Shown piece by piece: positions 27,370-50,081 of a stretch of 64,000 bases of DNA (position 1 is its first letter; the number at the start of each line of letters is the position of its first letter). The notes under the pieces are model-generated. The model was not told the origin of the DNA and did not search any database. It saw nothing but the letters and a program-made list of their open reading frames with translations. The DNA comes from Nitratireductor mangrovi (lineage in GTDB: Bacteria > Pseudomonadota > Alphaproteobacteria > Rhizobiales > Rhizobiaceae), in assembly GCF_007922615.2 (NCBI RefSeq), contig NZ_CP042301.2, positions 1,302,001 through 1,366,000 of the forward strand. The letters are read 5' to 3'. The position numbers were made by a program, and so were the translations under genes.

Positions 27370-28179
27370 TCAGCCTCCCACCCGCTGCATCAGCGCCATC
27401 GCGCCGAACGGCGCGCGGGTCTTTCCCTCGGTGATGAAATAGACGAACACGTCGCGCGGCTTCCTTTCGGCCGGCGCGCCGGGATCGGCATAGGCGAGAT
27501 CGTCGGGCGCGCCGCCTTCGGCCCAGAGCTTCGCGCGCTCGGCCCAGCGGTCGAGATCGTGCTCGTTGTAACAATTCTCGTTGTCGTCGGAGCCGGTCTG
27601 CAGCCGCGCATAGACGAAATCGCCGCTGAGATCGGCGATCGCCGGATATTTGGCGTGCTCGGCATAAACGATCGCGACACCGTGGCGGCGCGCCAGGGCG
27701 ACGAATTCCGGCACGGCGAAGCTGGCGTTGCGGACCTCGACCGCGTGCCGCAGCTTCAGGCCGTCGCGGCTTTCGGGCAAAAGCGCCAGGAACGCGCCGA
27801 AATCCTCGGTGTCGAACTTCTTGGTCGGCGCGAACTGCCACAGGATCGGCCCGAGCTTGTCGCCGAGCGCGGTGATGCCCTGGCCGACGAAACGCTCGAC
27901 CGACTCGCCAGCCTCGGCCAGCACGCGCCGGTTGGTGACGAAGCGGTTGCCCTTGAGCGCAAACACGAAACCGTCCGGCGATTCGCTCGCCCATTTCAGG
28001 AAGGTCGGCTCCTTGAAGCCGGAATAATAGGTGCCGTTGACCTCGATGGTCGGCACCTGGCGCGAGGCGTGCTCGAGCTGGCGTTTTTTTGCAAGCTTTT
28101 CCGGGTAGAAGCTGCCTTCCCAGGGCTCGAAGGTCCAGCCGCCCATGCCGGCGCGGATTTTTGATGTGCCTGAGGTCAT
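27370..28179 (-). CDS. DUF72 family protein
   Basis: 269 residues, TIM-barrel-like DUF72 (YecE) family. Motifs: RAGMGGWTFEPWEGSFYP near the start, VNGTYYSG, SPDGFVFALKGNRFVTN, LGPILWQFAP, AVEVRNASF and DVFVYFITEGKTRAPFGAMAL. Molecular function is not established for the family. GGGAACC lies just before the ATG. Confidence 0.88.
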   Translation of the reverse strand: MTSGTSKIRAGMGGWTFEPWEGSFYPEKLAKKRQLEHASRQVPTIEVNGTYYSGFKEPTFLKWASESPDGFVFALKGNRFVTNRRVLAEAGESVERFVGQGITALGDKLGPILWQFAPTKKFDTEDFGAFLALLPESRDGLKLRHAVEVRNASFAVPEFVALARRHGVAIVYAEHAKYPAIADLSGDFVYARLQTGSDDNENCYNEHDLDRWAERAKLWAEGGAPDDLAYADPGAPAERKPRDVFVYFITEGKTRAPFGAMALMQRVGG

Positions 28180-28451
28180 CGCGCGTGGTTCCCGTTCTCT
28201 TGTCTGTCCTCAAACGCCGGCGGGCGCATCCGCGCCCCTGGCTTTCCGCGCCACGAGGCGCGGCGGCCGGTCGGCCTTGCGGTCGCTGCGCGACCGGAGC
28301 GGGAGCGAGTAGCGGTGACGGCGTGCATCATCCCGTTCCTGAGGTTTTGCCGGCGGAAAATGCGGCTTCGGCCGGCGCTTGTCCATCCGGCGGCGGGCGA
28401 CTGCTGACAGGGCGCAGCCTGCCGATCCATGACGTCCTCCGGACCCGTTCA

Positions 28452-28477
28452 GGAACGGCGGGAGTCCAAGCTAGGTT
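28452..28477 (+). promoter_or_regulatory. second, weaker EcfG-like promoter match
   Basis: GGAAC at 28452-28456 and GGTT at 28474-28477 are separated by 17 bases. This is one mismatch from the consensus -10, so it may be chance. It lies 60 bases upstream of the better match. Confidence 0.25.
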
Positions 28478-28510
28478 CGGAGGGGCGGGAACAAATTGCC
28501 AGCGGGCGAG

Positions 28511-28535
28511 GGAACCGGCGCGGTGTCTGCCCGTT
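28511..28535 (+). promoter_or_regulatory. EcfG (general stress response) promoter of the PRC-barrel gene
   Basis: GGAAC (28511-28515), 16 bases, CGTT (28532-28535) is the exact GGAAC-N16-CGTT pattern recognised by the alphaproteobacterial stress sigma factor EcfG. It leaves a leader of about 30 bases before the PRC-barrel gene. The rest of the 390-base gap from 28180 shows no gene. Confidence 0.65.
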
Positions 28536-28571
28536 TTCGTCGCGGGCGCGACAACAACGAGGACCATGACC

Positions 28572-28949
28572 ATGCAGACACAGCAGAAAGCCGACCTACA
28601 TGAAAGCCACGACCTGATCGCCAGCGACAAGGTCGTGGGAACCAATGTGTACGATCCCAAGGGCGACCATATCGGCTCGGTGGAGCGCCTCATCCTTGAA
28701 AAGCGCGGCGGCCGCGTCGCCTACGCGGTGCTCAGCTTCGGCGGGTTCCTGGGGATCGGGCACGACCACTACCCGCTGCCGTGGGCCAAGCTCGACTACA
28801 ACGAGGAGCTGGACGGGTTCCAGGTCGACGTGACCAAGGAGCAGGTCGAAGGCGCGCCGAAATATGAGCGCGACCGCGACTACGACTGGAACCGGGACAA
28901 CGGCCGCGCGATCCACGATTATTACGGGATCGCGCCCTACTGGATGTAG
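28572..28949 (+). CDS. PRC-barrel domain protein
   Basis: 125 residues, soluble. The PRC-barrel core is visible as LIASDKVVGTNVYDPKGDHIGSVERLILEKRGGRVAYAVLSFGG (read in segments), ending with a charged DRDYDWNRDNGRAIHDYYGIAPYW tail. GAGG is 9 bases from the ATG at 28572 and only 3 from the ATG at 28566, which would add two residues. The EcfG promoter upstream fits the known stress induction of such proteins in rhizobia. Exact role unknown. Confidence 0.88.
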   Translation: MQTQQKADLHESHDLIASDKVVGTNVYDPKGDHIGSVERLILEKRGGRVAYAVLSFGGFLGIGHDHYPLPWAKLDYNEELDGFQVDVTKEQVEGAPKYERDRDYDWNRDNGRAIHDYYGIAPYWM

Positions 28950-28975
28950 GCTGCAACGCAGGCCCGGCCCGATAA

Positions 28976-29009
28976 CGCCCGGCGCACACGCGCCGGGCGT
29001 TTCGTTTTG
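28976..29009 (+). terminator. intrinsic terminator after the PRC-barrel gene
   Basis: CGCCCGGCGC, loop ACAC, GCGCCGGGCG, then TTTCGTTTTG: a perfect 10-bp G+C stem with a T-rich tail, 26 bases after the stop codon. Downstream to 29287 there is no gene; it holds a 60-base stretch similar to 28441-28500. Confidence 0.8.
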
Positions 29010-29287
29010 TGAGTGCGCCGTCAAGCGTGCTGGCCGGGACGCGCTTCGGCGCCTCGCGTGCTGTTCGATGGCAGCCGGCAAGTCCATCGCCGTCTGCGGG
29101 ACCCGTTCAAATCCGGCGGGATTTCAAGGGACGGTGGAGAGGCGGGGACAAGTCGAAAGGCCTCGCCCCGACCAACAACGCAATGTGATGGTCACAATTG
29201 CGCCCAGCACTTCGTGGTTGATGACATCCGGCTGCCGCAGGGTCAGCCTGGATCGTTTGTGAAAAAAGCTTGAGAAGGAACTTTCAT

Positions 29288-29722
29288 ATGAAGAAACGCG
29301 TACTTTCGCTTGCTGCCGGAGCTTTCGCTCTTGTCTCCCTCGGTGGCGCGGGACTTGCCCAGGACGGCAGCCAGCTCACCGCCGCGGAGGCCGCAAAGAC
29401 CCGGGCCATGCTCCAGGTCGCGACCGGCGTCATCACGCTCGGCCGGTCCAACAAGGACCCGATGATGCTGATCGTCGGCGCCAAGATCCTTTCCGGACTC
29501 GGCGCCGTGAGCAGCGAGGGCGAGGCAAGCAGTGCGCTCGACATCGCGACGGTCCTTGACGAGGCCAAGGGGCTGGCCGGCGACAACCAGTATCTGCTGG
29601 ACGAGATCGCCGCGGTTCCGGCCGAGACGGAACGCGGCGCGCGCTACTGCAACTGGTATCAGGACTGCGGCTACTCGATCGTCGACCCGTACGCGTGCCG
29701 GGAAGTGATGGTCTGCAACTAG
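29288..29722 (+). CDS. exported protein, unknown function
   Basis: 144 residues. Signal peptide about 1-24 (MKKRVLSLAAGAFALVSLGG, cut after GLAQ). The mature part is helical (LTAAEAAKTRAMLQVATGVITLGRSN, LDIATVLDEAKGLAGDNQYLLDEI) with a C-terminal Cys-rich end (YCNWYQDCGYSI, YACREVMVCN) that could form two disulfides. Not recognised. AAGGAAC lies before the ATG at 29288. Confidence 0.75.
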   Translation: MKKRVLSLAAGAFALVSLGGAGLAQDGSQLTAAEAAKTRAMLQVATGVITLGRSNKDPMMLIVGAKILSGLGAVSSEGEASSALDIATVLDEAKGLAGDNQYLLDEIAAVPAETERGARYCNWYQDCGYSIVDPYACREVMVCN

Positions 29723-29757
29723 GCCGGCCCGCGTCGCAAGATCCCGAATTTTCGGCT

Positions 29758-29800
29758 AAGGGCGCGCAGGCGGCAATTGGTCGTTCTGCGCGCCTTTGCT
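29758..29800 (+). terminator. intrinsic terminator
   Basis: GGCGCGCAG (29761-29769) pairs with CTGCGCGCC (29786-29794), flanked by AAG and followed by TTTGCT. It ends the exported-protein transcript and marks the last native sequence before the AT-richer operon. 29801-29973 holds nothing I recognise. Confidence 0.55.
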
Positions 29801-29973
29801 GTCCGTACCGGCGGGGCGGCTGAGAGCGCGGCCAGCACGCGCTGCGGCGCGGTGCGGTGACGCCCGATCGCAGGCTGTCAGGGCGGCGCCCTTCCGTTTG
29901 AGGGCGACGGGATTGTAGGGGAGGCTGGAGGGGTGGCGATAAGAGTTGGAGCCATTGTTAGCAGAACGTCATC

Positions 29974-30633
29974 CTAGAAGGCGAGATTCAGTTGTGCTGA
30001 TTGTTTGTTCGCTTCACGAGACCACACCCACGCATCAAATTCCCGCCGTGAGATGGAGAGTAGATCGGCTGCAAAGCAGAACGCGTTCTTTAGGAAGCTG
30101 TACTCGTCTCTGTCGACACCCGCCTTCGCCGCAAACGTCCTGATATGCCGATCTACGGCAATCGACTCGATTCCTACCAAGCAAGACATGTAATCGATCG
30201 TCTTCAGACCTACACCCTTCAATAGCAGAAGATCGGCGCAGAACGTATCAGTCTTGAGAACTCGCCGTATATCTTCAATCGTATCCACTTCTGACGCATG
30301 CAGGAAGTCGACCAGGCTCTCAAAACGCGCAACTTTGGTGGGGTGCTGCCAATCGAGCAGAGCCTCGGTTCGACCGTTCCGGATGACACAGATAAGAGCA
30401 CTGACGCGATCCGCTTGGGGAAACTCCTTTAGGATGCGGCCCACACGCGGCCAGACCACTGTACGGTAGCTAAGCCCCGCTTGGAGCACCGCATCCGCAA
30501 GTAGTGCTCCGGCGTGGTCATATGTTGAACGGCGCACGGAATATGTCGACGGGACACCCTGCGTGGACGCAAAGTCTGCCACTCGACGTGCGGCCCTCAG
30601 TAGTTCAACTCGGTCCATCTTAGCTCCGGTCAT
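29974..30633 (-). CDS. HhH-GPD (OGG-like) DNA glycosylase/lyase homologue
   Basis: 219 residues. A helix-hairpin-helix LLLLKGVGLKTIDYMSCL (about 135-152) is followed by the GPD Asp in SIAVDRHIRTFAAKAG. Lys144 (GLK) and Asp161 (VDRH) fall where bifunctional OGG1-type glycosylase/AP lyases keep their catalytic Lys and Asp (GTKVADC and VPVDVH in OGG1), so the protein looks catalytically competent. It should remove a base from DNA, or act on a nucleotide with the same fold. The first gene is elsewhere in the operon; this is the last one, overlapping the QueC-like stop as ATGA. OGG-like proteins are ancillary in some type IV CBASS operons. Confidence 0.75.
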   Translation of the reverse strand: MTGAKMDRVELLRAARRVADFASTQGVPSTYSVRRSTYDHAGALLADAVLQAGLSYRTVVWPRVGRILKEFPQADRVSALICVIRNGRTEALLDWQHPTKVARFESLVDFLHASEVDTIEDIRRVLKTDTFCADLLLLKGVGLKTIDYMSCLVGIESIAVDRHIRTFAAKAGVDRDEYSFLKNAFCFAADLLSISRREFDAWVWSREANKQSAQLNLAF

Positions 30634-31256
30634 CGCAGCAGGCCGGTTTGCCGAAGCGCTCCTAGGCGCTCAACGCAGTTTGGGCAAGCTCCACAAGGAA
30701 GATTGCTAGACGCTTGGCAGGAGAACGTCCTACCGATGGGGACGCCGAGCCGTATGGCCTCTTGAGTGACCTCTGTCTTCGATGAGTATCGATAGGGCGA
30801 CATAAACCGAACTGGTCCGATAGCGTCAGTCAGCCCGTCAAGTTTGTTCATAAACTCGGCAGTGCAGTCAATTTCCTTAGCATGGTTGCTATTAATGAAA
30901 CCTGTATAGACCTCGAATATACCTAAGGTCTGCGCCCTAGCGGCTGCTGCTGCATAGAACAGAAGTGTTCGGTAAGGGATGTACAAATCATCGTCACGTA
31001 CATCGTCCGTCCAGAGGTTGGCTTCAACGATCAATCTCGATTTTGAATCCCGAAAGAGATCGGAGAGATCAACACGCTCGGGGCGTCTCATACCCTTCGG
31101 CAACACTTCATTGACTCGGTCCCATTCGGTCTCGACGCAGTGTTGACCATAGTCAAAAAAAAGTGGGGTTACGTCCTTCCCCTCTGCGTGCAGCCCGAAT
31201 GCGACGGTCGTCGAGTCCAAGCCACCAGATGCAAGAAGCATCACGCCTTGAGTCAT
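30630..31256 (-). CDS. QueC-like 7-cyano-7-deazaguanine synthase homologue
   Basis: 208 residues, slightly shorter than housekeeping QueC. PP-loop SGGLDST (10-16), FFDYGQ (33-38), zinc site Cys180, Cys188, Cys191, Cys194 in SCQASSNLPCGACPNC. The QueC motif usually read as VPxRN is IPYRT here, and the substrate-region D-x-SGYPDC pattern is replaced by SNHAKEIDC, so the substrate has probably shifted. Family knowledge: QueC makes preQ0 from 7-carboxy-7-deazaguanine with ATP; QueC-like Cap9 and QatC work in defence systems. The gene lies far from queA/tgt (47875-50081) and in foreign-looking DNA, so it is unlikely to be the housekeeping queC. Confidence 0.85.
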   Translation of the reverse strand: MTQGVMLLASGGLDSTTVAFGLHAEGKDVTPLFFDYGQHCVETEWDRVNEVLPKGMRRPERVDLSDLFRDSKSRLIVEANLWTDDVRDDDLYIPYRTLLFYAAAAARAQTLGIFEVYTGFINSNHAKEIDCTAEFMNKLDGLTDAIGPVRFMSPYRYSSKTEVTQEAIRLGVPIGRTFSCQASSNLPCGACPNCVERLGALRQTGLLR

Positions 31257-32581
31257 GTTGAAGCGTCCCTATGGAGCTTCGATAGGGCGTCAAACATTCC
31301 ATTCAAACAAAGGTCGAGGTCGGGCGAATATGTGGAACTTCCTTTGACCACCATTGTGTTCCGGTTCTCATTACGAGGATCAAAGGTGACAACCGGCTTT
31401 CCCATCTCAATCGCAAGACCAATCTCAACCAGCGTTCCGGGATCGCGTTCAATCGGAATCGCGAAAACTGCTGCACATTCCCCTAGCAACCGCACGTCGC
31501 TGATGTAGTAGGCAGTGAGAGACGCAACTGGAGAGTCTCGATCAGCCTCGCCATTTTCCTTTACCGGCCTTCTGACACAGAAGTTGTGGTACTCCAACGC
31601 TTCAACAGCTGCGCGAATTTCAGCATGATCTGCATACGAGAAGTCTGGCGCCGCTAAATAAATTTGCAGACCCCGGCGCGCATGCCAAGGCAGTGTGACG
31701 CCGCCCAAACCGCGGACGACGTCGATAGGCAACCGTAGTTCTCGTTCAATGCCCCGTTTAAGATCATCCGGCCACGTAGTTTGTGAATAGATCGTTGCGG
31801 CTTGCATACCTCGCCAAGCAGCATCTCGGATGCTGCTGTCGAGTGTGCCAAACACGGCTGTGAAGACGTCCCCCACGCCCACCGAGTTTGTAGTGACGTC
31901 TAGTCTGGCTGGAACATATTCGATGTCGCCAGTACCGAGATCGAATAGCCTACTGCCGCCGCGGTTCTCTTTCAGCAGTAGGTGCCTCGCGCCGATGTCC
32001 TTCGCCAATTCCAGCATTGGGGCAACGTCGCTCGATGCAATGCTGGAGAACAATTCAGACGAAGTCGAGATTGCCACCGAGTCGATTCGACCGGAAAGCG
32101 AACGAAGGAATTCAGCGTCATCCACGTCGTAGGCGATATCGATTGTGACTAGAGCATCGGGGTCGAGCTGACGAACCACGTCGGCTAAATCATAGCGACC
32201 CGGGAAGATTACGACAGAATGAAATCGACCCAAATCCGCGTGCTCGCGATTTGGAACAACTTTTCTCTCGTCACGCAGGAGGTCTTCGTAGCCTTGATGT
32301 CCAACCTCTTTCACGTCGGCAATTGCGATGACGTTGGGCGCACCTGTTACCTCCCCTAGGAGGATAAAGTCTCTACAGCCGTGCTTAGTCAGATAATCCT
32401 GCGCTTGCTCGATCAGGTACGCTGGGCAAAATACCCCGACAGCGTAGTTCTGCCCAGAAGCCCACAGGCCCCGAGCAGCATGCACCACGCCGCCAAGTCT
32501 TACCTTTGCTTCCGTGCTGCGTGTCGGCATCGTGAAGTCGACCGTGACTTCACCAATCAGTATCGGAACTGAACCTGGCAT
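31253..32581 (-). CDS. fusion of PfkB-type kinase domain and nucleoside deoxyribosyltransferase domain
   Basis: 442 residues. Residues 1-290 look like a PfkB/ribokinase domain: ILIGEVTVDF at the start, LGGVVHAARGL, and the signature NSVGVGDVFTAVFG (232-245) with the expected catalytic Asp238. Residues 303-440 look like a nucleoside 2-deoxyribosyltransferase (DRHyd) domain: IYLAAPDF, then ERDPGTLVEIGLAIEMGKPVVTF with Glu386 in the place of the catalytic Glu. One half would phosphorylate a nucleoside or sugar, the other break or exchange an N-glycosidic bond. It starts immediately after the stop of the Gly-rich gene without a clear ribosome site, so it is probably coupled, and overlaps the QueC-like gene by ATGA. 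Confidence 0.7.
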   Translation of the reverse strand: MPGSVPILIGEVTVDFTMPTRSTEAKVRLGGVVHAARGLWASGQNYAVGVFCPAYLIEQAQDYLTKHGCRDFILLGEVTGAPNVIAIADVKEVGHQGYEDLLRDERKVVPNREHADLGRFHSVVIFPGRYDLADVVRQLDPDALVTIDIAYDVDDAEFLRSLSGRIDSVAISTSSELFSSIASSDVAPMLELAKDIGARHLLLKENRGGSRLFDLGTGDIEYVPARLDVTTNSVGVGDVFTAVFGTLDSSIRDAAWRGMQAATIYSQTTWPDDLKRGIERELRLPIDVVRGLGGVTLPWHARRGLQIYLAAPDFSYADHAEIRAAVEALEYHNFCVRRPVKENGEADRDSPVASLTAYYISDVRLLGECAAVFAIPIERDPGTLVEIGLAIEMGKPVVTFDPRNENRNTMVVKGSSTYSPDLDLCLNGMFDALSKLHRDAST

Positions 32582-32953
32582 CTAGTCAGCAACAAAATCG
32601 GCCTGGACCTGAGGATTACTACCGTTCGAGGATGCAGTCACGATTCCCGTATAGGTGAACCCATCCTCCAAGCAGCCGGCAAGATAGTTGAGGCGTGTCG
32701 GCAGAGATCCAACCGACTCCGATCCTATGACTGCAACAACCCGCCCCTTGACCTGAACAGATAGCTTAGCACCAACCGCAGGACTGGATTTATGGTTCTT
32801 GTAGTAGTCGTGGCTAGCTACGTCCTCAAGACTAGCGGAAAACGCTTCACGGCACTTATCGGAGCCGCTTGAGCCACCGGCCGCTCCACTACCTGATCCG
32901 GTTTTCTTATTGCCAGAATAGTCGCTAAAACGTCCCGAGCCGCCGCTACCCAT
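32582..32953 (-). CDS. small Gly/Ser-rich protein with Met-Gly start, unknown function
   Basis: 123 residues. The first 31 are almost only Gly, Ser and small polar residues (MGSGGSGRFSDYSG, then KKTGSGSGAAGGSSGS) and look unfolded; Met removal would expose Gly2. The rest (32-123) is a compact, probably beta-rich domain with SVQVKGRVVAVIGS, VGSLPTRLNYLAGCLEDGF and TYTGIVTASS. I do not recognise the fold. As first gene of the operon, with GGAGA 6 bases before its ATG, it is the likely partner or substrate of the enzymes downstream. QatB of the Qat system also starts with Met-Gly, as far as I recall. Confidence 0.75.
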   Translation of the reverse strand: MGSGGSGRFSDYSGNKKTGSGSGAAGGSSGSDKCREAFSASLEDVASHDYYKNHKSSPAVGAKLSVQVKGRVVAVIGSESVGSLPTRLNYLAGCLEDGFTYTGIVTASSNGSNPQVQADFVAD

Positions 32954-32978
32954 TGCTCTCTCCCGTAAGTCGAGCGCA

Positions 32979-33008
32979 ATATTACCTATGGCAGTTTCAC
33001 CTTATCAA
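32979..33008 (-). promoter_or_regulatory. sigma-70 type promoter of the island operon
   Basis: Read on the minus strand: TTGATA (33008-33003), 18 bases, TAATAT (32984-32979), about 25 bases before the Gly-rich gene. The gap to uvrA (32954-33060) is otherwise empty. Confidence 0.5.
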
Positions 33009-33060
33009 GTATTGATTTACTCAATGCACAACCAGCTGCTCCGCCAATCCGAGCGAAGGT

Positions 33061-35985
<2,925 letters not shown>

Positions 35986-48954: not shown

Positions 48955-50081
48955 GCGACCGGTTTTCCTTCGAGGTCCTGGCCACCGACGGCAAGGCGCG
49001 GCGCGGGCTCGTCTCGATGCCGCGCGGCGCGGTGCGCACCCCGGCCTTCATGCCGGTCGGCACCGCCGGCACGGTCAAGGCGATGTATCTCGACCAGGTG
49101 CGCGCGCTCGGCTCCGACATCATCCTCGGCAACACCTACCACCTGATGCTGCGGCCGGGCGCCGAACGCGTGGCGCGGCTTGGCGGACTGCACGATTTCG
49201 CGCGCTGGCCCTACCCGATCCTGACCGATTCCGGCGGCTTCCAGGTGATGTCGCTGGCGCAATTGCGCAAACTGACCGAGAAGGGCGTGACCTTCAAGTC
49301 GCATGTCGACGGGGCCAGATACGAGTTGACGCCGGAGCGCTCGATCGAGATCCAGGGCCTGCTCGATTCCGATATCCAGATGCAGCTCGACGAATGCGTG
49401 GCGCTGCCGGCCGAGGAAACGGCGATCGAAAAGGCGATGGAGCTTTCGCTGCGCTGGGCCGAGCGCTGCAAAGCAGCCTTCGGCGACCAGCCCGGCAAGG
49501 CGATGTTCGGCATCGTGCAGGGGGGCGACCGCCCCGCGCTGCGCGAGCGCTCGGCAGAGGCGCTGAAGGCGATGAGCCTGAAGGGTTACGCCGTCGGCGG
49601 GCTGGCGGTCGGCGAGCCGCAAGCGGTGATGCTCGACATGCTCGATGTCGTCTGCCCGGTGCTGCCGAAGGAGAAGCCGCGCTACCTGATGGGGGTCGGC
49701 ACGCCTGACGACATCGTCAAGGCGGTGATGCGCGGCATCGACATGTTCGACTGCGTGATGCCGACGCGGGCAGGGCGGCACGGGCTGGCCTACACCAGGC
49801 GTGGCAAGATCAACCTGCGCAATGCGCGCCACGCCGAGGACCCGCGGCCGCTCGACGAGGAGAGCGACTGTACCGCGGCGCGCGACTACAGCCGCGCCTA
49901 TCTGCACCATCTGGTGAAGTCGGGCGAGGCACTCGCCGGCATGCTCCTGACCTGGAACAATCTTTCCTACTACCAGTCGCTGATGCAGGGGCTGCGCGAC
50001 GCGATCGAGACGGCAAGGCTGACCGACCATGCTGCTGCCTTGTCCGAAGGCTGGGAGCGCGGCGACATTCCTCCGCGCTGA
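48951..50081 (+). CDS. tgt: tRNA-guanine transglycosylase
   Basis: 376 residues from a TTG start that overlaps the queA stop. Exchanges guanine for preQ1 in t[16 protein letters not shown] holds the catalytic Asp, [13 protein letters not shown] the second region, and the zinc ligands are in the C-terminal [16 protein letters not shown] stretch. It is the housekeeping queuosine enzyme; it shows that 7-deazaguanine bases are available in the cell. Confidence 0.96.

Follow-up and report, generated by a model that had tools for sequence, protein, structure and literature searches.

A four-gene operon in the 64,000-nucleotide window examined here (Nitratireductor mangrovi, NZ_CP042301.2, positions 1,302,001 to 1,366,000) encodes a small protein with a Gly/Ser-rich N-terminal tail and a HIRAN-like domain, a fusion of a PfkB-type kinase to a nucleoside 2-deoxyribosyltransferase (NDT), a QueC-like ligase, and a DNA glycosylase-like protein. 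By analogy with related systems, we favor with moderate confidence a reading in which the operon is a mobile immune system, with N-terminal conjugation of a nucleobase to the HIRAN-like protein, base handling by the PfkB-NDT fusion, and a DNA-damaging arm provided by the glycosylase. Attachment of a nucleobase to a protein N terminus was reported in 2025 for type IV CBASS (cyclic oligonucleotide-based antiphage signaling system; PMC11996544) and proposed in 2026 for Qat, and we propose that the operon represents a third QueC-based conjugation system, composed of two clades. If so, the HIRAN-like acceptor hints at the purpose of the tag, and the enzymes make the chemistry testable. We did not find this four-protein set described in our searches of open-access main texts. 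The operon and its surroundings comprise:

32582..32953, minus strand: gene 1, 123 aa; Gly/Ser tail (residues 1-31) plus HIRAN-like domain (about residues 35-123)
31253..32581, minus strand: gene 2, 442 aa; PfkB (ribokinase-like) part (about residues 1-290) fused to an NDT part (about residues 300-442)
30630..31256, minus strand: gene 3, 208 aa; QueC-like ATP-dependent ligase
29974..30633, minus strand: gene 4, 219 aa; HhH-GPD DNA glycosylase/AP-lyase-like (OGG-like) protein
32979..33008, minus strand: promoter-like TTGATA-18-TAATAT directly upstream of gene 1; weak, at chance level
29723..33060, no strand: stretch with the low-G+C operon, bounded by a short open reading frame (ORF) and uvrA

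As the preliminary description of this DNA had it, the four minus-strand ORFs abut (genes 1 and 2) or overlap by 4 bases (the other two junctions), and their base composition is unlike that of the flanks, with 52-55% G+C over 30000-32999 and 62-68% over 28000-29999 and 33000-34999. Its single promoter did not hold up, with two sigma-70-like sites found and 1.6 expected by chance. The operon was acquired and occupies a variable site in the host genome, which is one contig of 4.86 Mb. Four relatives, three congeners and one member of the same family, keep the 3' end of uvrA to about base 33061; the next block that they share is 27378-28417, and in none does the operon lie in between. The comparison of related strains suggested earlier likewise points to patchy presence: the PfkB-NDT protein was not found in the other 60 relatives searched, including three of the same genus, so that it occurs in 1 of 61 with the host itself counted. 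Near the insertion, a search for direct repeats yielded only short two-copy matches; an Rfam scan of the window gave no matches, and the DNA of the Kosakonia operon had no match among 20,395 Escherichia coli records.

The four genes form a conserved set. Among the best 80 of 102 genome loci found through the QueC-like protein, so that co-occurrence is conditional on gene 3, all four are present in the same order at 74; a chance gene cluster is ruled out by this recurrence. Two of the other six loci are cut by contig ends, three are fusions in Bacillota, and one is a Bradyrhizobium locus (L051). Viral contigs carry all four genes in 13 of 16 cases, the remaining three ending within or beside the operon, and plasmid copies also occur, two of the four records labeled as plasmids being 4-Mb Proteus records that are probably chromosomes. 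In the Bacillota loci (L066:6648-8630, L069:6648-8630, and L070:6648-8618), PfkB-NDT is joined to QueC in a single protein of about 660 aa, and a NUDIX-family gene lies directly upstream of the tail gene. At L051:7450-9268, a cut-off dGTPase-like frame stands directly before the QueC and glycosylase genes, and neither the tail protein nor PfkB-NDT was found.

Gene 1 is the proposed acceptor of the nucleobase and, going by its fold, may act as a DNA-end sensor. Its tail begins MGSGGSGRFSDY, and residues 1-31 are of low confidence in the predicted structure and are predicted to be disordered. In an alignment of 92 tail proteins (85 distinct, with some near-duplicates among the 96 loci, 80 genomic and 16 viral), drawn from Proteobacteria, Bacteroidota, Bacillota, Candidatus Acidiferrum, and TM6 loci, the conserved start is MGSxGSGxFSDY: G2, S3, and Y12 are conserved at 99-100% and G5, G7, F9, and D11 at 86-92%, with a variable linker behind them. 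A start of M/V-G-S is present in 90 of the 92, the other two being one MGT and one sequence cut at a contig end. The start position appears real because the start codons are ATG (89/91) or GTG (2/91) and a Shine-Dalgarno-like 4-mer precedes 71 of 91 tail gene starts, compared with 83 of 455 random places. Residues from about 35 to 123 are predicted to adopt a HIRAN-like fold (Foldseek E values of 0.008-0.03; root-mean-square deviation from HLTF mostly 3.5-5.8 Å); a sequence profile of gene 1 gave only chance-like matches to the PDB, and neither gene 1 nor gene 4 has a Pfam match. HIRAN domains bind DNA 3' ends. The fold resembles the HIRAN domains of HLTF, Rad5, and Hachiman HamB, but gene 1 is a stand-alone protein with a tail like that of QueC acceptors and without a helicase in the same protein. 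The preliminary description, which called gene 1 a "Gly-rich partner", missed both the HIRAN-like fold and the acceptor-like N terminus.

Gene 3 belongs to the QueC family (Pfam QueC, 101 bits) but is set apart from its housekeeping members. The SGGLDS loop, R96, D130, and the zinc cysteines at 180, 188, 191, and 194 are conserved (for genes 2 and 3, conservation was computed on the set without the three fused Bacillota proteins), and the canonical YPDC motif is replaced by E128-I-D-C. The form E-[I/V/L]-D-C occurs in 15 of 15 members of the clade of the window protein, where the base-stacking Tyr of QueC and Cap9 is thus an invariant Glu128; YxDC is found in 12 of 13 canonical QueC proteins and in the QueC of L164, a Pseudanabaena plasmid locus. 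In a tree of 39 of 43 sequences, without three QatC sequences and a canonical one on a long branch, the window clade (support 99/99) and a sister clade (100/99) stand apart from canonical QueC and Cap9, with a joint branch that is not firm (87/93); in a first tree the long-branched QatC had been drawn to the window clade. Gene 3 scores 86 bits against TIGR00364, where the cutoff is 150, and housekeeping QueC is ruled out by this and by the separate clade, in agreement with the tree comparison that the preliminary description had proposed. As a single protein, gene 3 has Cap9 as its best solved relative. PADLOC (2023) flagged only the QueC-like protein of the operon, aside from a chance-level Cas1 match for gene 4; its QatC model had no match in the window genome, and its QueC model at E 1e-30 matched nothing anywhere, controls included, and is uninformative.

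The proposal of conjugation is drawn from two known systems. Type IV CBASS combines the QueC-like Cap9, the Cap10 protein, which resembles tRNA-guanine transglycosylase (TGT), and a CD-NTase with an MGGS tail (PMC11996544, PMC13279940). In type IV CBASS, QueC-type conjugation targets an N-terminal Gly tail, namely the MGGS start of the CD-NTase; such a tail is also the proposed acceptor in Qat, which cannot do without the MGTS start of QatB (PMC13279940). Gene 1 shares this feature of a partner with an N-terminal Gly tail. At L164, a SMODS CD-NTase that begins MGGSGGGFFSNS lies two genes after the QueC-family gene, and the protein between them, in the place of Cap10, has no Pfam match. As there, the present operon sets a QueC-like ligase beside a protein with a Gly tail (MGGSGGGFFSNS in L164 and MGSSGSGxFSDY here), and the likeness of MGGSGGGFFS to MGSSGSGxFS is close; gene 3 also has the Cap9-like spacing of the zinc motif, and the operon contains an enzyme of a base-exchange family. 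As the preliminary description states, OGG-type glycosylases are accessory to type IV CBASS; none was found among six L164 proteins. In contrast to type IV CBASS, the operon lacks a TGT-like Cap10 and a CBASS effector, and neither it nor the four ORFs that flank it include a CD-NTase (no genome-wide search for one was made). The putative acceptor has a HIRAN-like domain, base exchange would fall to a kinase-fused NDT, and gene 3 has E-I-D-C in place of YxDC and falls in a separate clade.

Qat likewise has a QueC-family protein with an altered base pocket and a partner with a disordered tail and a conserved MG start (MGTS in Qat); at all three intact QatC loci that we inspected, the gene of an MGTS protein immediately precedes QatC in the same orientation. 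The differences are that neither the operon nor the four ORFs scanned on its flanks include a QatA ATPase or QatD TatD nuclease, that gene 3 has 208 aa and QatC about 400 aa, and that the partner here is a HIRAN-like beta domain whereas QatB is helical. CBASS membership is ruled out by the lack of CD-NTase, Cap10, and a YxDC pocket in the operon, and Qat membership by the lack of QatA, QatD, and an extended QatC. The absence of CD-NTase, a TGT-like protein, QatA, and QatD had been noted in the preliminary description, and its suggestion of a separate module agrees with the distinct QueC clade and with the joint recurrence of the four proteins across genomes.

The identities first given to genes 2 and 4, a PfkB-NDT fusion and an OGG-like protein, are borne out by profiles. 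The PfkB half of gene 2 is recognized by profile (E 6e-8 to 2qcv), Pfam PF00294 not being reached, and the NDT half by Pfam (Nuc_deoxyrib_tr, 49 bits) and by a PDB profile (E 7e-16), which was used since the single NDT sequence had no PDB match. Residues G235-x-G237-D238, D362, D380, E386, and N408 are conserved; G235, G237, and D238 (99%) presumably form the GxGD anion hole and base of the kinase, and the invariant D362, D380, and E386 align with what we take to be the catalytic acidic residues of NDT enzymes. Gene 4 is OGG-like by profile (E 7e-6), and its structural model recovers by Foldseek 50 matches, among those displayed, that are all of the HhH-GPD superfamily by title, two of them with E below 0.001. 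K144 and D161, presumably the HhH Lys and the catalytic Asp, are 100% conserved.

By analogy of enzyme, tail, and gene neighborhood, we infer that, after removal of the initiator Met, the QueC-like enzyme would use ATP to activate a carboxylated guanine-like nucleobase and join it to the amine of Gly2. If the fold is a guide, the HIRAN domain would take the tagged protein to DNA ends or to damaged or replicating invader DNA. The intact active sites of the other enzymes suggest that PfkB-NDT, in place of Cap10, may carry out base exchange, either in reading, loading, or processing the tag or in releasing the base from a nucleoside, and that the glycosylase may remove bases from DNA, most simply as an effector making abasic sites and nicks.

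The surroundings of the operon at other loci are consistent with a role in defense. When two genes per side were scanned with PADLOC (278 proteins in two sets of 139, without three near-duplicate loci), 385 and 274 families were matched, counts that are inflated by cross-matches of ABC-type ATPases, one of which matches many models; as a control, 132 genes at 20 hand-chosen rather than random sites elsewhere in carrier genomes match 20 families with one protein each. The strong neighbor matches, taken from the first 25 families listed, include dGTPase (7 proteins), PtuA/PtuB (5 and 4), GajA (4), and HEC-01A (5), and 13 of the 96 loci (near-duplicates included) have a dGTPase relative in the flanking sequence that was retrieved. 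A PHROGs scan of 102 ORFs surrounding 9 of the 16 viral copies, with operon genes excluded and three L096 ORFs dropped, found portal, terminase, head-protease, and tape-measure genes. With defense-rich neighbors at other loci, a conserved set, and a patchy distribution, the reading as a defense or conflict module made in the preliminary description is supported; the enrichment in defense islands that it raised is seen elsewhere relative to the control, but not at the flanks of the operon in N. mangrovi. A DUF6441 gene, identified with Pfam, lies directly upstream of the operon in L041, L042, and L047 (5506-6138), all Rhodobacterales, and viral loci L093 and L098 have ORFs at the same place; DUF6441 presumably has a phage role, and its placement suggests a shared prophage slot.

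A sister clade of the operon was reached through distant PfkB-NDT genes on plasmids and a PfkB-NDT profile survey, which had matches in 6 of 398 Pseudomonadota genomes, that of N. mangrovi included. In the converse test, the other five survey loci all carry the tail protein and QueC, and all are of the sister type. A small tail protein, PfkB-NDT, and QueC occur together at 20 of 20 sister loci, with an HhH-GPD glycosylase at 15 (three of these cut at the locus end) and a nitroreductase-like protein at 14, both families having Pfam support; also seen are a Dam-like methylase (4), dGTPase (3), a restriction endonuclease (3), and a VUT transporter (2). The small sister proteins show a relationship to gene 1 by hhalign (probability 96.6, E 5e-10) and in single matches to E 2e-8. 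The motif CHx5CxxCxGC(xK), which marks QueC Cluster 4 of Libby et al., is present in 9 of 11 sister-clade and 0 of 15 window-clade sequences. Cluster 4 and the window operon have the PfkB-NDT and QueC pair in common, and the sister clade mostly combines the Cluster 4 motif with small tail proteins related to gene 1, but the motif is in no window-clade sequence, and the Results and Discussion of the published account of Cluster 4 (PMC13329287) mention no tail protein, glycosylase, or defense role. On two Rhodobacterales plasmids (L103:6171-7443 and L150:5572-6844), a nitroreductase-like gene and a VUT-family queuosine-precursor transporter gene lie directly behind the sister operon. At L103:4033-4404, L150:3434-3805, and L153:3413-3808, the tail protein is absent from the distributed gene tables with its frame intact, so annotation-based neighborhood surveys would miss it.

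The narrow form of the conjugation reading, in which the chemistry is exactly that of type IV CBASS and 7-carboxy-7-deazaguanine (CDG) or another 7-deazaguanine is joined to Gly2, is a tentative option that we regard as rather unlikely. QueC and Cap9 act on CDG, the product of QueD and QueE. D130 of gene 3 is invariant and corresponds to the Asp by which Cap9 and QueC recognize the Watson-Crick edge (PMC13279940), and its retention suggests a guanine-like edge. Among 50 carriers, hand-chosen from the 80 and many of them drafts or metagenome-assembled genomes, PTPS/QueD is present in 37 and QueC above the curated cutoff in 29, and the VUT transporter beside the two related sister plasmid operons fits the same chemistry. 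The window genome has one TGT-family match (window 48993-50045, plus strand, in a 691-aa frame 16 kb from the operon; 492 bits over positions 2-352 of 357) and a protein of the Vut_1/YhhQ family of queuosine-precursor transporters; because of these two, salvaged 7-deazaguanine could serve, and with no QueC or QueD match besides, the host is probably a queuosine-precursor salvager.

Unlike its defense reading, the deazaguanine chemistry inferred in the preliminary description is not supported. Neither QueD nor the QueE model TIGR03365 has a match in the window genome, which also holds no second QueC beyond weak partial matches, and 12 of the 50 carriers have neither QueD nor housekeeping QueC, one of them (L071) being a complete genome. 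None of these 12 has QueE above the cutoff (best 3e-9), a weak absence since the model is weak: all seven PTPS-positive carriers in which QueE was sought match it at E 6e-12 or better, just three above the cutoff. Because of these gaps, the operon probably does not depend in general on de novo CDG, unless it is inactive in the hosts concerned, and the presence of the operon in hosts without the known precursor pathway asks whether the tag must be 7-deazaguanine at all. In addition, the base-stacking Tyr is replaced by Glu128 throughout the window clade, and changing the Tyr in the base pocket to Ala inactivates E. coli QueC (PMC13329287). The base would come from salvage or from release by the NDT domain, or would be of another kind.

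A more elaborate version, which we consider improbable, is that the product is a protein-linked deoxynucleotide: QueC would add a base to Gly2, NDT would add deoxyribose to it, and the kinase would phosphorylate the sugar, after which HIRAN would carry the product to DNA 3' ends, blocking or marking invader DNA while the glycosylase opens or clears sites. If true, a single tail would be worked on by three enzymes in succession, a chemistry that none of the papers found describes.

Readings without conjugation fare less well. Libby et al. (2026; PMC13329287) noted the PfkB-NDT neighbors of QueC Cluster 4 and proposed purine salvage, and the window operon could similarly be a purine or 7-deazapurine salvage operon. 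PfkB and NDT are indeed salvage-type enzymes with intact residues, and the host appears to live by salvage; we nonetheless judge this quite unlikely, as it leaves unexplained a HIRAN-like protein with a fixed N terminus, a DNA glycosylase, carriage on viral contigs and plasmids, the patchy presence among relatives and surveyed genomes, and the defense neighbors. If the operon does act as proposed, the published Cluster 4 could be reinterpreted in terms of immunity rather than salvage. There is similarly little to recommend a role in DNA base modification or repair, in which the glycosylase opens a site and NDT/PfkB and the QueC-like enzyme supply a modified deoxynucleotide to the DNA of host or phage. 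The glycosylase occurs in both clades, an adenine methylase lies beside four sister operons, and QueC-like genes are annotated in many phages, but the operon has no TGT/DpdA-like inserter, the fixed MGS start is unexplained, and we know of no NDT that acts within DNA. A toxin-antitoxin-like unit, in which the other proteins restrain a glycosylase toxin and mobility reflects addiction rather than immunity, would fit the compact layout, with most genes overlapping, and the carriage by plasmids and viral contigs, but is very improbable given that four conserved genes with three enzymes exceed an antidote's needs and that loci without the glycosylase occur.

Several observations weigh against the immune-system reading with nucleobase conjugation that we prefer. 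The glycosylase was not seen at 5 of the 20 sister loci, and the three Bacillota loci lack it and have NDT fused to QueC. Gly2 is not universal in the sister clade, where tails begin mostly with MSG but also with MGG, MCG, MTG, and MSS. The modest Foldseek values for the HIRAN fold, the inflated PADLOC counts, and the QueD/QueC gaps described above count against it as well. As to Cap9, a 13-sequence profile of both clades ranks QueC 2pg3 first and Cap9 second, and the tree does not group the window clade with Cap9. Finally, no defense gene was found among the four ORFs scanned that flank the window operon, and the PfkB-NDT protein had no match in 50,697 phage records.

Some sister loci have further features of their own. 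The tail proteins of haloarchaeal plasmids are longer, with 211 aa at L104:3745-4380, 362 aa at L151:2688-3776, and 219 aa at L154:3128-3787, and in that of L104 the core domain appears, by eye, twice in tandem. On a Synechocystis plasmid (L102:1135-3943), a multiubiquitin/ThiF/DUF6527 cluster adjoins the sister operon.

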